The notes below the pieces were generated by a model, which was not told where the DNA came from, searched no databases, and worked only from the letters and a program-made list of their open reading frames with translations. From a virus: 32,627 bases of DNA. A program made the position numbers and the translations under genes. This document shows, in pieces, positions 3,011 through 28,457 of this stretch (position 1 is its first letter; each line of letters begins with the position of its first letter). The stretch lies in IMG/VR virus record IMGVR_UViG_3300032291_001745, positions 1 through 32,627 of that record. One strand, 5' to 3'.

Positions 3011-4528
3011 ATGAATCCATTATTATTGACAGACGGCTACAAAACAGGCCACCACCAACAATACCCAAAAGGAACCACGTTGGTTTATTCAAATTTTACA
3101 CCACGTTCTAACAAGTACGCCCCTAAAGGATGTAATGAAGTAGTTGTGTTTGGTACACAAATGGTTATGCAGCAATTGCATGAAGCGTTTCAAAACGATT
3201 TCTTTAGTAGACGTAAGGAAGACGTATGTGGGGAAATGAAACGTGAATTGTCTATGTACTTAGGAACTGATTACGATGTTTCACATTTTGAAGCATTACA
3301 CGATTTAGGCTACTTACCTATTTGTGTTAAGTCCTTACCTGAAGGAACTAAAGTACCTATGAAAGTTCCTGTATTGACTATTTACAATACACACCCCGAT
3401 TTTTACTGGGTTACGAATTATTTAGAGACTATCCTGTCTAACTTGTTGTGGAAGCCAATGACATCTGCTACTATTGCTCATCAATATAGAAAAGTATTGA
3501 CTAAGTGGATGGAAAAAACAGATAAAGAAAGAGCTTGGTTTATTGATTGGCAAGGTCATGACTTCTCAATGAGAGGTATGGATTCAGCAGATGCTGTTAT
3601 TAGTTCAGGTTTAGGTCATTTAACTTCATTCTTAGGTTCAGATTCATTACCTACTATTTATGGAGCTAGAAAATATTATGGTGCGGAAGGTATGGTTTGT
3701 GGTTCTGTTAATGCTACCGAGCATAGTGTAATGTGCGCTGGCGGTAAAGAAGATGAGGTTCATACATTCCGTAGATTGTTAGAAACTTATCCAACAGGTA
3801 TTTTATCAGTTGTATCTGATACTTGGGACTTATGGAAAGTATGTACCGAGCACGTGGTTACATTGAAAGACGAGATTTTGGCTCGTGATGGTAAATTGGT
3901 TATTCGTCCTGATTCAGGTGACCCGGTAGATATTCTTTGTGGCAAAATTAAAGATGACTTTTCTATAATTACACCTACTAAAGAAGAGTCTAAAGGTGTT
4001 ATTGAATTACTTTGGGATGTGTTTGGTGGAACAATTAACGAACAAGGTTACAAAGTTCTTGACCCACACATCGGAGCTATTTATGGTGATTCAATTACTA
4101 TTGATAGAGCAGATGAGATTTGTAAACGTTTAGAAGATAAAGGATTTGCTTCAACAAACGTAGTATTAGGTATTGGTTCATTTACTTATCAATATAATAC
4201 TAGAGATACATTTGGTTTTGCGATGAAGGCAACCTATGTTGAGTTGATGGAAGAAAAAACTACGGATTACGGAAATTCTGGTACTGAAGTACCCATTAGA
4301 GTTAAAGTAGGTAGAGAAATCTTTAAAGACCCAATTACAGATGACGGAACTAAAAAATCGGCAACTGGATTGTTAGCGGTATTTAAAGATGAAATAAATG
4401 GTTCTTATCAATTACATGACCGTTGTGATTGGAAAACAGATGGTACCGGAGAACTAAAGACAATCTACCTCAATGGAGAGTTTCACAACCAAACGACACT
4501 AACTCAGATTAGGTCTTTATTGAAGTAA
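3011..4528 (+). CDS. nampt: Nicotinamide phosphoribosyltransferase family protein (Nampt/Namat-like)
   Basis: Nampt joins nicotinamide to PRPP to form NMN. The family pattern is complete: LLLTDGYKTGHHQQYP at the N-terminus, the DWQGHDFSMRG region near 179-189, Asp211 in LGSDS, the phosphorylated-histidine region ATEHS with His238, and RPDSGDP at 299-305. Length (505) is near that of vertebrate and phage Nampt (about 490). With a Prs relative in the same block and no NMN adenylyltransferase in view, the pair also fits NARP1, in which a Nampt relative (Namat) joins nicotinamide directly to ADPR-pyrophosphate to give NAD+. A strong terminator follows, closing the operon. Confidence 0.93.
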   Translation: MNPLLLTDGYKTGHHQQYPKGTTLVYSNFTPRSNKYAPKGCNEVVVFGTQMVMQQLHEAFQNDFFSRRKEDVCGEMKRELSMYLGTDYDVSHFEALHDLGYLPICVKSLPEGTKVPMKVPVLTIYNTHPDFYWVTNYLETILSNLLWKPMTSATIAHQYRKVLTKWMEKTDKERAWFIDWQGHDFSMRGMDSADAVISSGLGHLTSFLGSDSLPTIYGARKYYGAEGMVCGSVNATEHSVMCAGGKEDEVHTFRRLLETYPTGILSVVSDTWDLWKVCTEHVVTLKDEILARDGKLVIRPDSGDPVDILCGKIKDDFSIITPTKEESKGVIELLWDVFGGTINEQGYKVLDPHIGAIYGDSITIDRADEICKRLEDKGFASTNVVLGIGSFTYQYNTRDTFGFAMKATYVELMEEKTTDYGNSGTEVPIRVKVGREIFKDPITDDGTKKSATGLLAVFKDEINGSYQLHDRCDWKTDGTGELKTIYLNGEFHNQTTLTQIRSLLK

Positions 4529-5415: not shown

Positions 5416-6158
5416 ATAAATTAAAAAATGATGATTTTTTTGGTAGATGTGAAAAGAAATTTGGTAAAAAATTTATATACCACAATGATTATAGTGGTAT
5501 GGACAAGCCAATTAAAATTACTTGTCCCATCCACGGGGATTTCCAAATATTATCTGAATATCATTGGCAAAGCAAGGATGGTGGTTGTTTAAAGTGTCAG
5601 AAAGATAAACATTTATTAAAGTATATTGATAACGGAAACATTTTTATTGAAAAATCGAAAGTAATACATAATAATAAATATGATTACAGTAAAACCAAAT
5701 ACGTTAATAATAACGTTAATGTGATAATAATATGTCCCGAACACGGGGAATTTGTTAAAAAACCGACTTGTCATTTAAATAGAGGTCAAGGATGCGTTGA
5801 ATGTAGTAAAAAAACTATGGGGGGTTATGGTGGATATAATCTTAAAAATGCTGAAAAATTTAAAGATAAATGGATAAATAAACGTGGCTTTATTTATTTT
5901 GTTATAATGAATAACGAACTTGAAAAGTTTGTTAAAATAGGTATAACCACCCAAAAAAACATACGAAGACGATTTTCAGGGTATAAATATGATGTTGAAG
6001 TATTTGATTTTATTGAAGATAATTTGTATAATCTTGTTTATAAAGAAAAAATAATTTTAGAAAAATTTAAAGAATTTAAATATAAACCAAAACAACACTT
6101 TAGTGGATACCAAGAATGTTTTAATTTAAAAATATGCGAAAATATAAAGAATATTTAG
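5412..6158 (+). CDS. GIY-YIG (T5orf172-like) homing endonuclease with zinc-finger repeats
   Basis: The 248-residue protein starts at GTG 5412. The first half has two copies of a Cys/His module, CPIHGDF...C..C and CPEHGEF...H....GC.EC (around 38-62 and 110-133), typical DNA-binding zinc modules of phage homing proteins. The C-terminal third (GFIYFVIMNNELEKFVKIGIT, then RRRFSGYKYDV, then Glu) fits the GIY-YIG/T5orf172 nuclease fold. It ends in TAG, which is rare here. The stop lies inside the rebuilt nucleotidyltransferase start. Confidence 0.8.
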   Translation: MNKLKNDDFFGRCEKKFGKKFIYHNDYSGMDKPIKITCPIHGDFQILSEYHWQSKDGGCLKCQKDKHLLKYIDNGNIFIEKSKVIHNNKYDYSKTKYVNNNVNVIIICPEHGEFVKKPTCHLNRGQGCVECSKKTMGGYGGYNLKNAEKFKDKWINKRGFIYFVIMNNELEKFVKIGITTQKNIRRRFSGYKYDVEVFDFIEDNLYNLVYKEKIILEKFKEFKYKPKQHFSGYQECFNLKICENIKNI

Positions 6159-6865
6159 TGGGGGGTTCAGTTAGAGACGAAATATTAGGTCTACCGAGAA
6201 AAGATTTAGATTATGTATTTGTCTTTGAAAATTTTGATGAAAACCAAACCGTTTCTGATTGTTTTAATGATATGTATCAAATTATACAAGAAAGAGGTGA
6301 AATATTTTTATCTACACCAAGTTGTTATACTATTAGATATAAAGATAAAAAAACCAAAGAAGTTAAAGATGTGGTGATGGCTCGAAAAGAGGTTGGGTAT
6401 ATTCCCAACACAAGACAACCGATGATTGTTCCTGGTACATTGAGAGACGATTTGATTCGTAGGGATTTTACCTTAAACGCATTGGCAAAAGACGAAGATG
6501 GTAATATCATTGACATGTTTGATGGTATGTGGGCTTTGGAGAACAAAATTCTTATGACACCACAAACCGCATGGACAACCATGTTGGATGACCCATTAAG
6601 GCTGGTTAGGGCTTTTAGATTCTCAATCACCAAAGGATTTGACATCTCACCAAGAATATGGGAGACCTGTCACGTGGATGAAATTGTGGACAAACTCGAA
6701 CAGGTTGTTTCACAGGAAAGAATTAGAGATGAGGTTTTCAAGATGATGAAACATGACACCTTGAAAACTTTGGATTTGTTTGAAAAAATTAAATATACCA
6801 ACCCAAGGATATTGGAAATTATGTTTGGTCGTGGTATGTGGTTAAAACCAACAACTGAATTATAA
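6134..6865 (+). CDS. cca: tRNA nucleotidyltransferase / poly(A) polymerase family protein
   Basis: Class II CCA-adding enzymes build or repair the CCA end of tRNA from CTP and ATP. Seen here are GGSVRDEILGL (nucleotide motif), KDLDYVF with the catalytic DxD pair, RRDFTLNALA and DDPLRLVRAFRF. At 243 residues it covers the head and neck but lacks the longer C-terminal body or HD domain of bacterial enzymes. The start overlaps the homing endonuclease end by 25 bp and re-creates the N-terminus severed at 5127. Context supports tRNA maintenance: the suppressor tRNA at 8878 lacks an encoded CCA. Poly(A) polymerase activity cannot be excluded. Confidence 0.85.
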   Translation: MRKYKEYLVGGSVRDEILGLPRKDLDYVFVFENFDENQTVSDCFNDMYQIIQERGEIFLSTPSCYTIRYKDKKTKEVKDVVMARKEVGYIPNTRQPMIVPGTLRDDLIRRDFTLNALAKDEDGNIIDMFDGMWALENKILMTPQTAWTTMLDDPLRLVRAFRFSITKGFDISPRIWETCHVDEIVDKLEQVVSQERIRDEVFKMMKHDTLKTLDLFEKIKYTNPRILEIMFGRGMWLKPTTEL

Positions 6866-18085: not shown

Positions 18086-19147
18086 ATGAAAATTATAATA
18101 ACAGAACAACAGCTTTCTCAAATAATTAATGAAGTTAGAAACAAACCTGGCGATAGGGACAAAATCTATCAAGATGAGAATATTGTTGTTGTTGCACCTT
18201 TAACACATACGTCTTCATGTAAGTATGGTGCCCATACAAAATGGTGCGTTTCGGTTCCATCAAATCCTGAACATTTTAATCAATATATGAAACATGGTGT
18301 TTTGATTTATTTTATTATTCGTTCACCATATAAAAACACCAATAAACCCGAATATAAATTTGCTTACTATCACCCATTTGATAATAATGGGGATGAATAT
18401 AAAGGGTGGTACGATATGTCTGACAATCAACTTTCATTTAAAGATAGTGTCGACCAAAACTTGATTAAGTTTCTAATCCCTGATGAGGTTTTTAATATGG
18501 TGAAAGATTATATTAAAACTCAAAAACCTATTTGGAAGGAAAAAGTTAAAAAATCGAAAATTGAACTTGTTGATAAAATAAAGAATGACCCAAAGAACAA
18601 GGAAAACATCATTGTGGACGACAAAGATTGGCTTATTATTAGATTAGATGACGGTTTTGACTATATTTTTGATGAAATGATGACTTATATCTACACCGAA
18701 CCGTCATTACAAATGACTATATTATATATCAATAAAAAAACTTACAACATGTATAGTCAAAGATTCGTATATTATAAAGACATAAGAAACAAAAACGTTT
18801 CAGAACATTTGATTATAAGAGATGTTAATAATGATGTTGAGACTAACAAAATTAACAACATTTATGAAAAATATTATCCAAAAATTGAAAAACAATATTT
18901 CAAAGATAGGAAAAAGTTTTACAATCCGCAAACCTTTGATAATGTTTATTTGTCACCGGAAGATGTTGAGGTTGGAGATAAAGTTAATAAGGATTATGTA
19001 ATCATTCGAAAATATAATGACCCCCAAACTAACCGAATTGTTTTTGACGGAATTGATAGTCATGGAAGAGAATATACAAATATCCATTATAATGATTCAG
19101 TCGGAGTTGGTGTAAAATACGACAAAGAACGACACAACCCAATATAA
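18086..19147 (+). CDS. Leader-bearing phage protein with YGAxTKWC domain
   Basis: The 353-residue product begins MKIIITEQQLSQIINEV, the same leader class as the three LRR-like genes. After it comes VVVAPLTHTSSCKYGAHTKWCVS (about 34-56), a conserved Cys/Trp motif of proteins in large phages, then an AYYHPFDNN...WYDMSDNQ stretch. The remaining 200 residues are charged alpha/beta. I infer a virion-packaged protein; the L/I-x-E site (I-N-E, residues 14-16) could be cut. Enzymatic role unknown. Flanking terminators make it monocistronic. Confidence 0.6.
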   Translation: MKIIITEQQLSQIINEVRNKPGDRDKIYQDENIVVVAPLTHTSSCKYGAHTKWCVSVPSNPEHFNQYMKHGVLIYFIIRSPYKNTNKPEYKFAYYHPFDNNGDEYKGWYDMSDNQLSFKDSVDQNLIKFLIPDEVFNMVKDYIKTQKPIWKEKVKKSKIELVDKIKNDPKNKENIIVDDKDWLIIRLDDGFDYIFDEMMTYIYTEPSLQMTILYINKKTYNMYSQRFVYYKDIRNKNVSEHLIIRDVNNDVETNKINNIYEKYYPKIEKQYFKDRKKFYNPQTFDNVYLSPEDVEVGDKVNKDYVIIRKYNDPQTNRIVFDGIDSHGREYTNIHYNDSVGVGVKYDKERHNPI

Positions 19148-19230: not shown

Positions 19231-19851
19231 GTGAAAAAAGAAATTATCTACACAGAACACTACGTGCTTATTGTAAGTGAATTAACATCCACAGGAAAAG
19301 AAGGACAAGTCTTTTTAACTAAAGAAAACACAATACACACCGTAATTGGATGGAATTATGGCGATAGAGTTATAATCGCACACCGACCATTAACAGACGC
19401 ACCTATTCTTGAAGGAGTTCCTCTGTTGCCTTACTTTGGTCAAGAAGATGATGTTGAAGATTTAGCACTCGCATACGCATCATCAAAAGGATATGTAAAT
19501 CCAGAAGGATATTCAGATAAACAAGTTGGACTTTTACATGGATTTATTGATGGTTACAACAAATCAAAAGAAACCTACAAGTACACTGAAGATGATTTGA
19601 TTGCCTTTTCCAACTTTGTAACTACAAATTTAATGAATCATTCAGATTCAAATGGTTTTTATATTGGGGTTAGAAAGGTTCTTGAATTATTTAAACAAAC
19701 TCAACAACCAGAACGTCCTAAGTATTTTGAGTGTGAGATGGAAGATGGTTTAATCAATCAACAAACTGAATTGAATAATTGGGGGGAACGACAAATTGTA
19801 AAAATCAACTTACAAGGTCAAATAGAATTAATTGGTAAATACATTTATTAA
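19231..19851 (+). CDS. Unknown phage protein, family A copy 1
   Basis: The 206-residue product starts at GTG. It shares with copies at 19870 and 21073 the order EIIYTEHYVLIVS, IIAHRPLTDAPILEGVPLLP, ETYKYTEDDL, RPKYFECEME and a C-terminal Q-G-Q-x-E-L-I-G-x-Y. Copies 1 and 3 also share a PEGYSDKQVGLLHGFIDGYN insert that copy 2 lacks. Similar proteins are frequent in Flavobacteria phages. Function unknown. Confidence 0.65.
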   Translation: MKKEIIYTEHYVLIVSELTSTGKEGQVFLTKENTIHTVIGWNYGDRVIIAHRPLTDAPILEGVPLLPYFGQEDDVEDLALAYASSKGYVNPEGYSDKQVGLLHGFIDGYNKSKETYKYTEDDLIAFSNFVTTNLMNHSDSNGFYIGVRKVLELFKQTQQPERPKYFECEMEDGLINQQTELNNWGERQIVKINLQGQIELIGKYIY

Positions 19852-19869: not shown

Positions 19870-20442
19870 ATGAAACACGAAATAATCTACACCAAACATT
19901 ACGCACTTATTATAAGTGACGAAAATATTAAAGATGTATGTAAAAATTTTCTTGAGGATGATTTGAAAACTAATACCCTCCCCATTTACTCAAATACTTT
20001 GGGTGAGTCTAAAAAAATCATCGCATATCGACCATTAATAGATGCACCTATTTTTGAAGGAGTTCCTTTATTACCTGAGTTTGAGGAGGATGACTTTTTA
20101 AATACTGAGATACAAGTTGTCGGAGATAATAAGACAATGTCTGTTAGTACTTTTTTAAAAAAATACGGTAAAGAAACCTACAAGTACACTGAAGATGATT
20201 TGATTAGTTTCCATAAATGGGCTTTTCAAAAAGTAAGGATAGAAGAATCTGATAAAAATACAAAAGAATTACTTGATGAGTGGCAATCTATTAAACAACC
20301 AAAACGTCCTAAGTATTTTGAGTGTGAGATTGAATACATCCATGACGAAACTGTACCCTATCCTAAAACATTAGGTACTAAACCAAAAACAACCACCAAC
20401 TCACAAGGTCAAACCGAGTTAATTGGAGAATACATTTTTTAA
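19870..20442 (+). CDS. Unknown phage protein, family A copy 2
   Basis: The 190-residue product matches copies 1 and 3 at both ends (EIIYTKHYALIIS, RPKYFECEIE, GQTELIGEY) and in ETYKYTEDDLI, but has lost or never had the central PEGYSDKQ segment. It has its own strong ribosome site, so translation does not depend on the upstream copy. Confidence 0.65.
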   Translation: MKHEIIYTKHYALIISDENIKDVCKNFLEDDLKTNTLPIYSNTLGESKKIIAYRPLIDAPIFEGVPLLPEFEEDDFLNTEIQVVGDNKTMSVSTFLKKYGKETYKYTEDDLISFHKWAFQKVRIEESDKNTKELLDEWQSIKQPKRPKYFECEIEYIHDETVPYPKTLGTKPKTTTNSQGQTELIGEYIF

Positions 20443-20698: not shown

Positions 20699-21076
20699 AT
20701 GAATGACTTAGAAAAAGACTTCGTAAAATATCCGGAAGCATTAGGTTTAAAAGAGTTAGGATTTGATGAGTATTGTATGGGATGTTGTTATTATGAATGG
20801 AAAGATAGAGGAGTAACACATATACTACTACACACACCAGACAGTTATGATTCGCATTCAGGTGTAAAAGCACCAACATATTCACAATCCTTCCGATGGT
20901 TTAGAGAGAAGTATAAATTGGGTGCAATAGTCGCTCAATTTGGGTGGGGGATAGAAAATGAATTTGGACAAATCATCCATAATATTACCAGTGGTGAAAC
21001 TGTTTTATGTTACGAAGAAGCAGAACGAGCTTGTCTTAAAAAGTTAATTGAAATAGTAAAAGAAAAACAAAAATGA
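20699..21076 (+). CDS. Conserved phage protein
   Basis: The 125-residue product carries ALGLKELGFDEYCMG and APTYSQSFRWFREKYKL, a motif set common in small proteins of temperate and large phages. It ends in overlap with copy 3 (ATGA). Function unknown. Confidence 0.6.
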   Translation: MNDLEKDFVKYPEALGLKELGFDEYCMGCCYYEWKDRGVTHILLHTPDSYDSHSGVKAPTYSQSFRWFREKYKLGAIVAQFGWGIENEFGQIIHNITSGETVLCYEEAERACLKKLIEIVKEKQK

Positions 21077-21708
21077 AAAAAGAAGTTATTTATACGGAAC
21101 ACTACGCGCTTATTATAAGTGATGAAAAAGCTGTAGAGGGGGACGTTATGTTTTGTACAGAAATCAAAAACATAATGATTGGCGGAATCACATCAGGACA
21201 ACTTAGGTATTTGGATAGTGAAATATTTAAAAAAATAATCGCGCACCGACCACTAACAGATGTACCTAATCTTAAAGGAGTTCCTTTGTTGCCTGATTTT
21301 AGTCAAGAAGATGATGTTGAAGATTTATCACTTGCATATTCATCATCAAAAGGGAATGTAAACCCAGAAGGATATTCGGATAAACAAGTTGGACTATTGC
21401 ATGGATTTATTGATGGTTACAACAAATCAAGAGAAACCTACAAGTACACCGAAGAAGATTTGAGAAATGCTTTTTACAACGGATGGTTATATCGTGGAGA
21501 AAAACAATATCAATACCCAAAAGCATTAAATGAATTTATCCAATCTCTTCAACAACCAAAACGTCCTAAGTATTTTGAGTGTGAGATGGAAAAAGTATGG
21601 GTGCGAAATACTGATAGAAATGCACCAACATTAGATGATTTTGATACTATTGTAAAAACCTTCACCAACTCACAAGGTCAAGTAGAGTTAGTCGGTGAAT
21701 ATGTCTAA
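21073..21708 (+). CDS. Unknown phage protein, family A copy 3
   Basis: The 211-residue product overlaps the previous gene by 4 bp. It is closest to copy 1, with the same GYSDKQVGLLHGFIDGYNKS and YTEEDL segments, and keeps RPKYFECEMEKV and GQVELVGEY at the end. The interval after EIIYTEHYALIIS differs among copies. Confidence 0.65.
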   Translation: MKKEVIYTEHYALIISDEKAVEGDVMFCTEIKNIMIGGITSGQLRYLDSEIFKKIIAHRPLTDVPNLKGVPLLPDFSQEDDVEDLSLAYSSSKGNVNPEGYSDKQVGLLHGFIDGYNKSRETYKYTEEDLRNAFYNGWLYRGEKQYQYPKALNEFIQSLQQPKRPKYFECEMEKVWVRNTDRNAPTLDDFDTIVKTFTNSQGQVELVGEYV

Positions 21709-21725
21709 AATGTAAAAATTAAATA

Positions 21726-22382
21726 ATGGATAAATCTGATGTAATTTTCGATTTAATTAATTTTAATATTGAGGGTGTTGATGTATATCATCACAACGGT
21801 TCCTTGTGGCTAATATTCACAGATAATAAAAAATGGATAATTGAATTAACTAAAGACGGTACCTTATGGTATAATCATTATTTTTTCACCAATTGTTTTA
21901 AATATTTATCGTTAGATGTTATTCATAATCAACACTATATTACCAAATGGGTTGAAAATGTCATACAAAATGGGGTGATAAACACCAATCATCCCCAATG
22001 GTGCTTTACCTGGTCGGTTGAAAATGTCATACAAAATGGGGTGATAAACACCATTTCCGCAGAATTGGTAGCGCCACTGGAAGTTGAAAATGTCATACAA
22101 AATGGGGTGATAAACACCCCCAAACACACGTCACAACAATTTAATTCTGTTGAAAATGTCATACAAAATGGGGTGATAAACACCATCCTTGTTGTATGCG
22201 GTGGTTTGTCCCATGTTGAAAATGTCATACAAAATGGGGTGATAAACACCACTGTAGGTGTTTCCAACCACACAACTAACGTTGAAAATGTCATACAAAA
22301 TGGGGTGATAAACACCATCGCACATGGGTTGATGTCCGCGAACACCGTTGAACATGTCTTACAAAATGGGGTGAAATTGTGA
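21726..22382 (+). CDS. CRISPR-like in-frame repeat protein, copy 1
   Basis: The 218-residue product has an N-terminal domain of about 75 residues (starting MDKSDVIFDLINFNIEGVDV, with WLIFTDNKKW and GTLWYN) and then seven 22-residue units. Each unit is the constant VENVIQNGVINT plus ten variable residues; the last is degenerate (VEHVLQNGVKL) and ends in TGA. The DNA of the constant part is identical in six units. The N-terminal domain differs from copy 2 mostly at synonymous sites or by mild changes, evidence for selection on a protein. Function unknown. Confidence 0.75.
   Translation: MDKSDVIFDLINFNIEGVDVYHHNGSLWLIFTDNKKWIIELTKDGTLWYNHYFFTNCFKYLSLDVIHNQHYITKWVENVIQNGVINTNHPQWCFTWSVENVIQNGVINTISAELVAPLEVENVIQNGVINTPKHTSQQFNSVENVIQNGVINTILVVCGGLSHVENVIQNGVINTTVGVSNHTTNVENVIQNGVINTIAHGLMSANTVEHVLQNGVKL
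21951..22382 (+). repeat. CRISPR-like array 1 (36-bp repeats, 30-bp spacers) inside a coding frame
   Basis: Repeats begin at 21951, 22017, 22083, 22149, 22215 and 22281, all identical over 36 bp, starting GTTGAAAATGTCATAC and ending GGTGATAAACACC; a degenerate seventh is at 22347. The end can form a GGTG/CACC hairpin with an ATAAA loop. The six 30-bp spacers share no sequence and are roughly half G+C by hand count, against an AT-rich genome. The 66-bp period keeps the reading frame and no spacer adds a stop. No cas gene lies in the window. Confidence 0.8.
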
Positions 22383-22446
22383 TAGATGTTGGTGTTTATT
22401 AATTTAAAAGTTTGATAATAAAGTTTTTAATTGTTATTTTTAAATA

Positions 22447-23688
22447 ATGGACAATTCTGAAGTAATTTTCGATTTAATTAATTTTAATATTGAGGGTGTT
22501 GATGTATATCATCACAACGGTTCCTTGTGGTTAATATTTACTGATGATAAAAAATGGGTAATCGAATTAACTAAAGACGGTACCTTATGGTATAATTATT
22601 ATTTTTTCACCAATTGTTTTAAATATTTGTCATTAGATGTCGTTAATAATCAACACTATATTACCAAATGGGTTGAAAATGTCATACAAAATGGGGTGAT
22701 AAACACCAAAACTTTTAAGCGCATGCACGCCAGACTGGTTGAAAATGTCATACAAAATGGGGTGATAAACACCCACTACCACTGGGACCTTGAATCGACA
22801 ATCGTTGAAAATGTCATACAAAATGGGGTGATAAACACCGGAATGCCGATGGGGGCGCTAGTCGCATCTGTTGAAAATGTCATACAAAATGGGGTGATAA
22901 ACACCTCGTTCCCCCTGAGCCACTCACACTCACACGTTGAAAATGTCATACAAAATGGGGTGATAAACACCATCGCACATGGGTTGATTTCCGCGAACAC
23001 CGTTGAAAACGTCATACAAAATGGGGTGACAAACACCATGTCGGCACGATTGGTTGCTGCCAAAATGGTTGAAAATGTCATACAAAATGGGGTGACAAAC
23101 ACTAAATGTGGTTCGATTAATGATGAACAACGTGCTGAAAATGTCATACAAAATGGAATAAGAAACACCATCCGACAGGATATTACTCAATTAAGTGAAG
23201 TTGAAGATGTGATTCAAAATGGGGTTAAAGAGGTTACAGCAGGAAAGACAGAAAGATTAACAATGATTAATGAGACCATTCAAAATGGGGTTAAGGAAAT
23301 CAAAACAAATGACAGTTACCGTAATTATTTCAAACAAAATAATAAAACAGAAAAGGTAATTGAAAATGGTGTGAAAATTATTAAACCTGCTTTTAAATAC
23401 GTATGCAACCCAATTAATTTTGAAATAATAAAACAAGAAGAAACGAGATATTGTACTGTTAAAGATGTTGTTGATTTTGGTGTTAAAAAAACCTTACCGG
23501 ATAACTTATTTGACACATCTGTTGTTGAATACAACATTGAAAATGGTATTAACGAAGTTATACCATTACCGGCACAAGATGGTAATCGAGATTGGGGTGT
23601 GTATTATCAAAGACAAGGGGATGTCCTAAAACCACATGTAAAATATGTTGACGATGCAATTAATTTAGGAATTAAGAAGACTATATAA
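22447..23688 (+). CDS. CRISPR-like in-frame repeat protein, copy 2
   Basis: The 413-residue paralog of the gene at 21726 has the same N-terminal domain (MDNSEVIFDLINFNIEGVDV) and 10 regular 22-residue units, then units that are longer and diverged. Constant parts drift from VENVIQNGVINT to VENVIQNGVTNT, VEDVIQNGVKEV, TEKVIENGVKII, VKDVVDFGVKKT and VEYNIENGINEV, keeping the pattern V-x-x-V-I-x-N/F-G-V-K. A non-repeat C-terminal tail follows. The repeat core is thus an old protein fold, with new DNA-identical units at its N-terminal side. Confidence 0.75.
   Translation: MDNSEVIFDLINFNIEGVDVYHHNGSLWLIFTDDKKWVIELTKDGTLWYNYYFFTNCFKYLSLDVVNNQHYITKWVENVIQNGVINTKTFKRMHARLVENVIQNGVINTHYHWDLESTIVENVIQNGVINTGMPMGALVASVENVIQNGVINTSFPLSHSHSHVENVIQNGVINTIAHGLISANTVENVIQNGVTNTMSARLVAAKMVENVIQNGVTNTKCGSINDEQRAENVIQNGIRNTIRQDITQLSEVEDVIQNGVKEVTAGKTERLTMINETIQNGVKEIKTNDSYRNYFKQNNKTEKVIENGVKIIKPAFKYVCNPINFEIIKQEETRYCTVKDVVDFGVKKTLPDNLFDTSVVEYNIENGINEVIPLPAQDGNRDWGVYYQRQGDVLKPHVKYVDDAINLGIKKTI
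22672..23301 (+). repeat. CRISPR-like array 2 (36-bp repeats, 30-bp spacers) inside a coding frame
   Basis: Perfect 36-bp repeats, identical to array 1, begin at 22672, 22738, 22804, 22870 and 22936. Those at 23002, 23068 and 23134 carry a few changes, and those at 23200 and 23266 many. Spacers are 30 bp throughout. The spacer at 22972-23001 differs from the array 1 spacer at 22317-22346 by one base; all others are private. The spacer at 22840 is the most G+C-rich (19 of 30). Confidence 0.8.
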
Positions 23689-26484: not shown

Positions 26485-26504
26485 ATGATTTTTTTAGAAA
26501 TCAT
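26485..26504. terminator. Possible bidirectional terminator between convergent genes
   Basis: The 7-bp stem ATGATTT/AAATCAT with a short loop lies between genes ending at 26440 (plus) and 26501 (minus). AT-rich and weak. Confidence 0.35.
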
Positions 26505-27172
26505 ATTAAAATAACGCCACCCACATTAACCATTTTTCTTATTTCTTCTTCTGAATATTTTTTGGATAATGGTGTATCACGTAAATCCAAATTACCATCA
26601 ACGGTGCGAAGATTTCCAAGGGATTCGATATTGGAATCTTGTAAATCCAACCATCCACCAACGGAGCGAAGGTTTCCAAGGTTTTTAATGTCAGAACCTG
26701 ATAAATCCAACCCACCACCAACGGAGCGAAGATTTCCAAGGGATTTGATATTGGTTTCACGTAAATCCAACCTACCACCAACGGAGCGAAGGTTTCCGAG
26801 GGATTCGATTTTGGATGATGATAAACCTAAATCACCACCAACGGTTTGAAGGTTTCCAAGGGATTTGATTTTGGTCCCATATAAATCCAACCAACCACCA
26901 ACGGTTTGAAGGTTTCCGAGGGATTTAATTTCGGAATATGCTAAAAACAAATTACCACCAACGGATTGAAGGTTTCCAAGGGATTCGATTTCGACATATC
27001 GTAAATTCAAATCACCACCAATTGTATATAGAGGATTACCTTCGGATTCCATATATTCTTGCAAAAAATTCCAATCATTATTAAAATATTTTAACGATGG
27101 AATATGAAGAACCTCAGGTTCTTCCTGTTCAATCAATCTTCTGTATTGTGATTCAGTTATTATTATTTTCAT
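26501..27172 (-). CDS. LRR-like repeat protein, copy 1 (last in operon)
   Basis: The 223-residue product has the leader MKIIITESQYRRLIEQEE, a short domain (HIPSLKYFNNDWNFLQEYM), and then about seven 20-residue LRR-like units (ESLGNLQSVGGNLFL type) forming a probable solenoid. The end SKKYSEEEIRKMVNVGG is shared by all copies. Its start overlaps the upstream copy's stop (TAATG). The leader holds L-I-E, a prohead-protease-like site. A binding or decoration role is inferred. Confidence 0.7.
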   Translation of the reverse strand: MKIIITESQYRRLIEQEEPEVLHIPSLKYFNNDWNFLQEYMESEGNPLYTIGGDLNLRYVEIESLGNLQSVGGNLFLAYSEIKSLGNLQTVGGWLDLYGTKIKSLGNLQTVGGDLGLSSSKIESLGNLRSVGGRLDLRETNIKSLGNLRSVGGGLDLSGSDIKNLGNLRSVGGWLDLQDSNIESLGNLRTVDGNLDLRDTPLSKKYSEEEIRKMVNVGGVILI

Positions 27173-27846
27173 TACATATAAATATTACCACCAACCTGAA
27201 CCATTTGTCTTATTTCTTGCTCTGAATATTTTTTAGATATCTGTGTATCACGTAAAAACAAATCACCACCAACGGAGTGAAGGTTTCCAAGAGATTCGAT
27301 TTTGGTTCCTTCTAAAAACAAATTACCACCAACGGAGTGAAGGTTTCCAAGGGATTCGATATTGGATTCATATAAATTCAAATCACCACCAACGGAGTGA
27401 AGGTTTCCAAGGGATTTGATTTTGGTTTCATATAAACCCAAATCACCACCAACGGAGTGAAGGTTTCCAAAGGATTTGATTTTGGTTCCATGTAAATTCA
27501 AACCACCACCAACGGAGCGAAGGTCTCCAAGGGATTCGATATTAGTTCCATATAAATTCAAATAATTACCAACAGATTGAAGATTCCCTAAAGATTCGAT
27601 TTTGGTTTTATATAAACTCAAATAACCACCAACGGATAGGAGATTTCCAAGGGATTTGATATTGGTTCCTCGTAAATTCAAATCACCACCAATGGTATAA
27701 GGTGGATTTCCTTCGGATTCCAGATATTCTTGCAGAAAATTCCAATCATCATTAAAATATTTTAACGATGGAATATGAATAACATCCAAGCGTTCTTCCT
27801 GTTCAATTAATCTTTTATATTGTGATTCAGTTATTATTATTTTCAT
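27172..27846 (-). CDS. LRR-like repeat protein, copy 2
   Basis: The 224-residue paralog has the same leader (MKIIITESQYKRLIEQEE), linker, seven to eight LRR-like units and C-terminal cap (KKYSEQEIRQMVQVGG then NIYM). The NIYM codons read AATATTTATATG and double as the TATTTATA element for the next gene. Confidence 0.7.
   Translation of the reverse strand: MKIIITESQYKRLIEQEERLDVIHIPSLKYFNDDWNFLQEYLESEGNPPYTIGGDLNLRGTNIKSLGNLLSVGGYLSLYKTKIESLGNLQSVGNYLNLYGTNIESLGDLRSVGGGLNLHGTKIKSFGNLHSVGGDLGLYETKIKSLGNLHSVGGDLNLYESNIESLGNLHSVGGNLFLEGTKIESLGNLHSVGGDLFLRDTQISKKYSEQEIRQMVQVGGNIYM
27177..27184 (-). promoter_or_regulatory. TATTTATA element (minus strand) inside the end of LRR copy 2
   Basis: TATAAATA on the plus strand, i.e. 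TATTTATA on the minus strand, lies 4 bp before the ATG of LRR copy 1 and overlaps the upstream NIYM codons. Confidence 0.4.
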
Positions 27847-28457
27847 TACATATAAATATTACTACCAACATTAACCATTTGTCTTATTTCTTCTTTGGAA
27901 TATTTTTCGGATATTGGTGTATTACGTAAATCCAACCAACCACCAACGGTTTGAAGGTTTCCGAGGGATTCGACATTGGTTCCTCGTAAATCCAAACTAC
28001 CACCAACGGATTGGAGGTTTCCAAGAAATTCGATTTTGACTCTATGTAAACTCAAATTACCACCAACGGATGTTAAATTTCCAAGGGATTGGATTTTGGT
28101 ACCATATAAACTCAAATAACCGCCAACGGATTGAAGGTTTCCAAGGGATTCAATATTGGTGTTATATAAATTCAAATAACCACCAACGGATTGGAGGTTT
28201 CCAAGGGATTCGATTTTGGTATTAAATAAATCCAAATAACCACCAACGGATGTTAAATTTCCAAGGGATTGGATTTCGGTTCGTCGTAAATCCAAATTAT
28301 CATCAATTGTATATGGAGGATTTCCTTCAGATTCCAAATATTCTTGCAAAGAATTCCAATCATTATTAAAATATTTTAACGATGGAATATGGAGAACTTC
28401 CGGTTCTTCCTGTTCAATCAATCTTCTATATTGTGATTCAGTTATTATTATTTTCAT
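27846..28457 (-). CDS. LRR-like repeat protein, copy 3 (first intact in operon)
   Basis: The 203-residue paralog with the leader MKIIITESQYRRLIEQEE has about six LRR-like units (SLGNLQSVGGYLNLYNTNI type) and the same cap (EKYSKEEIRQMVNVG). Upstream lies the stump of a fourth copy carrying the same stop/start junction. Confidence 0.7.
   Translation of the reverse strand: MKIIITESQYRRLIEQEEPEVLHIPSLKYFNNDWNSLQEYLESEGNPPYTIDDNLDLRRTEIQSLGNLTSVGGYLDLFNTKIESLGNLQSVGGYLNLYNTNIESLGNLQSVGGYLSLYGTKIQSLGNLTSVGGNLSLHRVKIEFLGNLQSVGGSLDLRGTNVESLGNLQTVGGWLDLRNTPISEKYSKEEIRQMVNVGSNIYM
27851..27858 (-). promoter_or_regulatory. TATTTATA element (minus strand) inside the end of LRR copy 3
   Basis: Same arrangement as at 27177, before the ATG of LRR copy 2. 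Confidence 0.4.

Follow-up and report, generated by a model that had tools for sequence, protein, structure and literature searches.

In-frame arrays of 36-bp repeats and 30-bp spacers in phage genes that probably grow by capture of host DNA

The DNA analyzed here, called the window, was the whole 32,627-nucleotide stretch of the virus record IMGVR_UViG_3300032291_001745 (G000 of our set; 32.6 kb, 31% GC). Two neighboring open reading frames (ORFs) of the window, A1 and A2, each encoded an N-terminal domain of about 75 amino acids followed by an array of a 22-amino-acid unit, which consisted of VENVIQNGVINT and 10 variable residues (Table 1). The eleven perfect 36-bp repeats in two arrays with exact 30-bp spacers, as described in a first-pass annotation, were all found in the sequence. 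The perfect copies of GTTGAAAATGTCATACAAAATGGGGTGATAAACACC in array 1 started at 21951, 22017, 22083, 22149, 22215, and 22281, the perfect repeat copies in array 2 started at 22672, 22738, 22804, 22870, and 22936, and all inter-repeat spacers of both arrays were 30 bp. A1 and A2 were tandem paralogs with 93% identity over 281 bp around the N-terminal domain, and 5' of a distal spacer common to both, the five spacers of array 1 and the four of array 2 were all different.

The 13 window spacers were 49% GC, which agreed with the earlier description of spacers with about half G+C in an AT-rich genome. Their GC fractions by codon position were 0.48/0.46/0.53, and the GC content at third codon positions (GC3) was 0.20-0.29 in the other window genes. 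None of the 130 window spacer codons was a stop in the coding frame, and each of the other frames held 2-7 stops, near the random expectation; the chance of zero stops across the window spacers was about 0.002 for uniform sequence. The in-frame 66-bp period, pointed out at first, held in the window and across 60+ related phages.

Table 1. Positions of the features of the two array-bearing ORFs in the window
Feature	Position	Strand	Basis
ORF A1, 218 amino acids: N-terminal domain and array 1	21726..22382	+	ORF list
A1 N-terminal domain	21726..21950	+	Confident alpha/beta fold in AlphaFold2, predicted local distance difference test (pLDDT) 83-96
Array 1: six perfect 36-bp repeats and five 30-bp spacers (NHPQWCFTWS, ISAELVAPLE, PKHTSQQFNS, ILVVCGGLSH, TVGVSNHTTN)	21951..22316	+	
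Array 1 spacer 6 (IAHGLMSANT), common to array 2 at 29/30 nt	22317..22346	+	
Degenerate seventh, terminal repeat of array 1; holds the stop codon and ends the gene	22347..22382	+	
ORF A2, 413 amino acids: N-terminal domain, array 2, decayed old repeats, conserved C-terminal cassette PLPAQDGNRDWG	22447..23688	+	
A2 N-terminal domain, paralog of the A1 domain	22447..22671	+	
Array 2: five perfect repeats and four private spacers (KTFKRMHARL, HYHWDLESTI, GMPMGALVAS, SFPLSHSHSH)	22672..22971	+	
Array 2 spacer 5 (IAHGLISANT), common to array 1	22972..23001	+	
Older decaying repeats of array 2 (2, 2, 5, 10, 14 mismatches); older spacers increasingly AT-rich	23002..23301	+	
Array 2 spacer 6 (MSARLVAAKM), of host origin and antisense to ftsH	23038..23067	+	Genome match
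C-terminal remnant: strongly diverged repeats and family-wide cassette VIPLPAQDGNRDWGVYYQRQ...KPHVKYVDDAI	23302..23688	+	

Comparison of the spacers of the window and its relatives with sequence collections showed matches of some of them to Bacteroidia genomes. In one Bacteroidia family, 75 of the 240 genomes were matched at E<=0.002, and a second spacer set matched 49 of the same 240; the control with reversed spacers (same composition, slightly smaller query) matched 0 of 240. After local checking, 38 distinct spacers were matched at <=3 mismatches, including 31 at <=2, 20 at <=1, and 7 that were perfect over 30/30 positions. The matched chromosomal genes, named by reading the translated ORFs and not by profile hits, were aminopeptidase P (pepP), ftsH, rpoB, PBP1A, mazG, uracil-DNA glycosylase (ung), a TonB-dependent receptor, an SprA-like protein, a radical SAM protein, and others. 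Conserved genes were over-represented among the matches because the true hosts were probably absent from the collection. No spacer matches were found in phage or plasmid collections, in the phages' own genomes, or in relatives outside the arrays, and for this reason other phages, plasmids, and the phage's own genome were rejected as sources of the spacers. The BLASTn check first proposed, which named phages, plasmids, and Bacteroidetes genomes as possible sources, thus found foreign DNA in Bacteroidia chromosomes and none in phages or plasmids. The recent spacers of the family are almost certainly pieces of Bacteroidota chromosomes.

The age of a spacer was taken as the number of mismatches between its two flanking repeats. 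The set contained 527 distinct spacers, and the young units outside the window numbered about 26 in the first data set and 61 in the enlarged set. The youngest spacers lay between identical repeats, and all 72 spacers with 0-2 flanking-repeat mismatches were exactly 30 bp; lengths of 33 and 36 bp were confined to older units. Spacer GC3 fell with the number of mismatches, from 0.47 (0), 0.45 (1), 0.37 (2), and 0.32 (3) down to 0.25 (>=13), and the GC3 of the other genes of these phages was 0.242 (standard deviation 0.053). The trend was also seen without the window spacers (rho=-0.29, p=4e-11). The amino-acid usage of young spacers was similar to that of random codons, and old spacers were rich in Asp, Gly, and Tyr. 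These shifts of GC3, length, and amino-acid usage with age indicated that a spacer arrives as 30 bp of DNA with a foreign composition and is domesticated later. An ordinary variable repeat protein, whose repeats are homogenized by gene conversion and whose linkers drift neutrally, would account for the homogenized repeats within arrays and for the C-terminal units, which had diverged as under drift. Drift, however, cannot yield exact bacterial chromosomal matches, which the reversed-spacer control did not give, or a GC3 of 0.45-0.5 when the phage coding GC3 is 0.24, and this explanation is hardly credible. The host matches and the base composition of the young units led to the rejection of simple duplication or drift for them.

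Spacer turnover in related phages, another check proposed at first, was seen between sister phages with near-identical N-terminal domains, which differed by whole 66-bp units. Phages L086 and L115 had 13-14 spacers in common and 10 and 4 private spacers, respectively, mostly towards the N-terminus, and comparable gains, losses, and shuffling of units were found in L114, L123, L132, and L134. Private spacers had a higher GC3 than shared spacers (0.37 v 0.29, p=0.005), and their flanking repeats were more alike (p=3e-4). Array-specific repeat variants surrounded new units, for example ...GTTAAGTATACC in L112 and ...GTTAAGAACACC in all of L122, as if every insertion had duplicated the repeat locally. 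The arrays were polar, with the young, consensus-like units towards the 5' end (p=4e-8), and private spacers were also found inside arrays. The alternative raised at first, that of spacers conserved at the protein level with no turnover, did not hold for the 5' units and described the C-terminal units only in that they were conserved at the protein level. Host matches, fixed length, and whole-unit turnover together argued that each new unit arose when a piece of host DNA was inserted in frame and the repeat was duplicated, and the mechanism inserting 30-bp cassettes that the first-pass annotation had called for was supported across the 60+ related phages.

The positions of the located spacers in the host genes were analyzed. 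Fourteen were sense (8 in frame, 3 and 3 out of frame), 23 were antisense (7/8/8 by phase), and one locus had no ORF, so that orientation and phase were nearly those of fragments captured at random and then sieved for stops. Peptide mimicry was rejected, since 8 of the 37 spacers were in the host frame, about the number given by the no-stop filter alone. Positions +2 to +4 of the 3' flank were A-rich (A in 49/93 for the matches with <=2 mismatches, local A 0.29, p=2e-6), and no other 3-nt window scanned within 30 nt scored higher. In the array, a spacer is followed by a repeat that begins with GTTG and so does not carry the motif, and no homology to the repeat ends was found in the protospacer flanks.

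The fixed length might also have come from selection, if phage replication or end-joining linked random short host fragments into the repeats and the 22-amino-acid period of the protein let only in-frame inserts of 30 bp survive. This period was present in all relatives, selection on it could fix the length, and phages do shuffle cassettes by recombination. Older units, however, tolerated linkers of 9, 11, or more residues, whereas the 72 youngest all had exactly 10, and the protospacer flanks carried a fixed 3' motif without repeat-end homology; such illegitimate copying is therefore quite improbable. Insertion by a dedicated length-measuring enzyme is very likely.

The frame of the arrays was strictly kept. 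No in-frame stop was found in 449 distinct spacers, compared with a stop rate of 2-13% per codon in the five remaining frames. Shared spacers had a ratio of nonsynonymous to synonymous polymorphism (pN/pS) of 0.33 with the differences concentrated at codon position 3, a value that partly follows from the choice of pairs by peptide similarity; pairs chosen by DNA identity showed 1005 third-position versus 449 second-position differences. Old linkers reappeared as peptide cassettes (EYGDWLDGDER, KSLQIDGSCV, HDDVYHHKGR, and PLPAQDGNRDWG) whose order differed by phage. Because the frame was kept and the shared spacers were under purifying coding selection, the product of the array was taken to be a protein.

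The arrays might instead be transcribed and processed into guides against host genes, similar to the RNAs of clustered regularly interspaced short palindromic repeats (CRISPR), that work with a host or phage effector to shut off or cut the host, with translation secondary. Such guides would fit the 36/30 geometry of type VI-B arrays, the spacers that match host genes, and the 3' motif, which resembles a protospacer adjacent motif (PAM) and is absent from the repeat, just as PAMs are absent from CRISPR repeats. The repeat DNA was also conserved at synonymous sites beyond the protein: Asn was encoded by AAT in almost every unit, the repeat Gly by GGG in 245/406 cases versus 12% in other genes of these phages, and repeat position 8 by GTG in 226/369 cases versus 11%. 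Of the features noted at first, the GTTG start was present and the GGTG...CACC hairpin existed on paper, and a nested hairpin was found in 2/6 repeats, but the repeat RNA folded no better than shuffled sequence. The equality with the VI-B geometry likewise stood, whereas the relatives showed that the 22-amino-acid period belongs to an old repeat protein. The strong selection on the ORF with zero in-frame stops stood against guides, and so did old spacers, which decay as DNA yet are conserved as peptides. An anti-repeat search gave chance-level results only, Rfam matched no family, Cas1 was not found in 30 phage records, and no Cas effector was found in the window. Guide RNA is on balance a rather unlikely function of the arrays.

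In the explanation that we favor, these genes of large viruses of lake Bacteroidota are probably translated capture arrays of host DNA. During infection, exact 30-bp pieces of the host chromosome would be taken beside a 3' A-rich motif, and each would enter the gene at one of its 36-bp repeats, which would be duplicated. As 36 and 30 bp sum to 66 bp, or 22 codons, a stop-free insertion adds one in-frame unit, which would consist of the fixed 12-amino-acid motif VEDTIQNGVK(H/E/N)T and 10 new amino acids; insertions containing stops would be lost. Units that are kept would lose the host composition and be subject to purifying selection on the protein; their lengths would drift, and phages would exchange and reorder them as cassettes. 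The inserter would be a CRISPR-adaptation-type integrase acting in trans, either host Cas1-Cas2 (possibly of type II-C) or an unrecognized phage enzyme. The product may be a repeat protein that binds or contacts some host component through its variable segments.

Several results weigh against this explanation. Cas1 scored above the cut-off in 0 of 30 phage records, some of them incomplete, and only 35 of the 240 genomes of the matched family had Cas1, with the best-match genomes mostly lacking it. Just 1 of the 13 window spacers (23038-23067) matched a sequenced genome, and it matched as a conserved gene: it aligned at 28/30 positions, with a 27/27 core, antisense to ftsH in genome G673, and matched 14 other genomes in that family less well (E<=0.05). 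For the window phage itself, a host origin is therefore supported chiefly by the phages related to it. The motif in the protospacer flank is weak and was derived from genomes related to the true hosts. Some phages were found with identical arrays in several samples without turnover there, and turnover is not fast on the scale of such identical arrays. The repeat region was modeled by AlphaFold2 with low confidence, as strands with pLDDT of 42-68, and had no confident Foldseek neighbor, as CsgA/FapC curli-type amyloid and an antifreeze beta-solenoid appeared at E of 0.02 or worse.

The cas genes with a matching repeat for which a search had been suggested at first did not turn up, given the Cas1 count above and the absence of the phage repeat from the 240 host-family genomes. 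PADLOC gave no Cas hits among 10 window proteins, and nothing integrase-like was seen among the genes flanking the arrays, in clusters inspected by eye. A 13-bit Cas1 match in a 595-amino-acid ORF (L163) was judged to be chance. Arrays beside four host-family Cas1 genes comprised three with 36-bp repeats resembling type V-A and one of type II-C. The II-C array (L241:40-850, in G235) had an unusually long 57-bp repeat, GTTG...ATAAACAAC. Its spacer lengths were 30, 30, 30, 31, 30, 30, 29, 30, and 30, which makes the host II-C machinery a candidate, and its repeat ends (GTTG...ATAAACAAC) resembled those of the window repeat (GTTG...ATAAACACC). An unrecognized phage integrase is as likely as this machinery.

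The same events could have another actor and beneficiary, if host CRISPR adaptation (II-C, or Cas1-Cas2 serving VI-B) wrote self-spacers into a phage gene resembling a CRISPR repeat and the phage tolerated or exploited them. Besides the 30-bp spacers and the repeat ends of the host-family II-C array, the A-rich PAM of one Bacteroidota II-C Cas9, NNAAAG in a Flavobacterium enzyme (PMC12609912), would favor such a decoy, and fixed length with repeat duplication is the behavior of Cas1-Cas2. However, 85% of the matched-family genomes, including nearly all best spacer matches, had no Cas1, the host II-C repeat was 57 bp instead of 36 and the phage repeat was in no host array, and new units were found at several positions and not only at the leader. 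A decoy is thus possible but clearly the less probable account. Since it agrees with capture by the phage on the events, the likelihoods given to the two are not to be added.

Regarding the product itself, a profile match to Crov588 (PDB 6nyr) covered the whole chain at E=2.4e-16 and included an ENVLPNSL-like segment, which may be period resonance because single stretches scored 10-17 bits (E 0.03 or worse). Crov588 is an FNIP/FGxxFN leucine-rich repeat (LRR) protein (PMC9525666) with the same 22-residue period, but the variable segments of the phage protein break the LRR pattern. We infer a solenoid or fiber with a diversifying surface.

Profile searches of IMG/VR yielded 15, then 61, then 79 loci of the family on contigs of up to 318 kb with about 27-36% GC, and a homologous N-terminal domain was present in 61 viral loci. 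The repeat consensus was V-E-D-T-I-Q-N-G-V-K-(E/H/N)-T. No significant Pfam or PHROG assignment was obtained for the repeat protein, neither the window's identical repeat nor any window spacer was found elsewhere in IMG/VR, and among 84,980 prokaryote species scanned for the family the sole match was one chance-like hit of 17 residues. The L122 array, at the end of G057 (190 kb), was pristine: its eight repeats were identical and its seven spacers unrelated, and one spacer (YSDVIYHVSY) carried an internal palindrome, GACGTGATATATCACGTC. Another type of repeat, VEEHYKVGVTST, which likewise recurred every 66 bp, was present in at least two of these phages, at L279:9962-10831 (minus strand) of the 318-kb phage record G028, whose ORFs were read by eye and not by profile libraries, and also in L041. 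This array was diverged and translated, with 10-amino-acid variable linkers, near-identical 36-bp DNA repeats, and a similar N-terminal domain.

Elsewhere in the window, three paralogs (M-K-x-E-I/V-I-Y-T-x-H-Y-x-L-I) lay upstream of the arrays at 19231-19851, 19870-20442, and 21073-21708. Three tandem paralogs at 26501-28457 on the minus strand encoded a 20-amino-acid LRR-like repeat protein (SLGNLQSVGG) with a 60-bp DNA period and relatives in L009. A short N-terminal motif (MKIIITESQYRRLIEQ or MNLQEQISRIKEMM) was common to unrelated proteins at 18086, 24963, 25799, 26501, 27172, and 27846 and to many ORFs of the relatives; it is possibly a capsid-targeting or processed leader peptide. A phage-encoded nicotinamide phosphoribosyltransferase, a phosphoribosyltransferase-like protein, and a CCA/poly(A)-polymerase head domain were found at 3011-4528, 711-1643, and 6134-6865, respectively.

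Taken as a whole, the arrays are somewhat better explained than not by an undescribed DNA-capture system of large Bacteroidota phages, in which a motif-selecting, 30-bp-measuring integrase would write host sequence into the coding array with duplication of the repeat, and the phage would thereby extend a protein with random host DNA. The literature searched, in which subscription papers and preprints were mostly outside reach, held no description of a translated host-DNA capture array. Such an array would place a heritable record of host DNA inside phage coding sequence and provide a route from random foreign DNA to new protein sequence, unit by unit, which bears on the origin of CRISPR adaptation, the birth of new coding sequence, and protein diversification in large phages. 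In practice, the spacers would name past hosts of the phage, information that most metagenomic phages lack.

Among known systems, diversity-generating retroelements also diversify a segment of a phage protein, whereas here whole 30-bp host-derived inserts are used. The adenine-specific change of these elements was not found, as the A-rich repeats were unchanged and the spacers were host DNA. Borg elements, like these phages, have fast-evolving tandem repeats inside ORFs of large extrachromosomal elements, but the Borg repeats are copies of one unit, and the phage arrays hold foreign spacers. Repeat-spacer arrays or repeats on phages are known from the CRISPR arrays of the Nostoc cyanophages A-1 and N-1 (PMC4916379) and from RNA anti-CRISPRs, which are phage-carried repeats (PMC10651486); those are non-coding or solitary host-like repeats, in contrast to the coding repeats here, which were not found in the host family. 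The phage arrays also share features with the CRISPR arrays of Bacteroidota (VI-B, II-C). Near-identical repeats alternate with unrelated spacers of a fixed 30 bp, in the 36/30 geometry for VI-B; the spacers are copied from other DNA in which protospacers can be found, beside a PAM-like 3' motif absent from the repeat; and repeats are array-specific. Young units tend to lie towards one end, the 5' end, although private spacers are also present inside arrays. The combination of a fixed length, a flanking motif, and a duplicated repeat resembles CRISPR adaptation, and the capture system would be its translated relative or analogue, used by a parasite. A CRISPR array in the usual sense, as the first-pass annotation had suggested, was contradicted by the Cas1 count in the phage records, the lack of an anti-repeat, the host-chromosome spacers, and the coding selection. 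No linked cas genes or anti-repeat were found with the phage array, and insertion is not confined to the leader end. Its spacers come from the host chromosome instead of mobile elements, and the array itself is a selected ORF in which old spacers are conserved as peptides.
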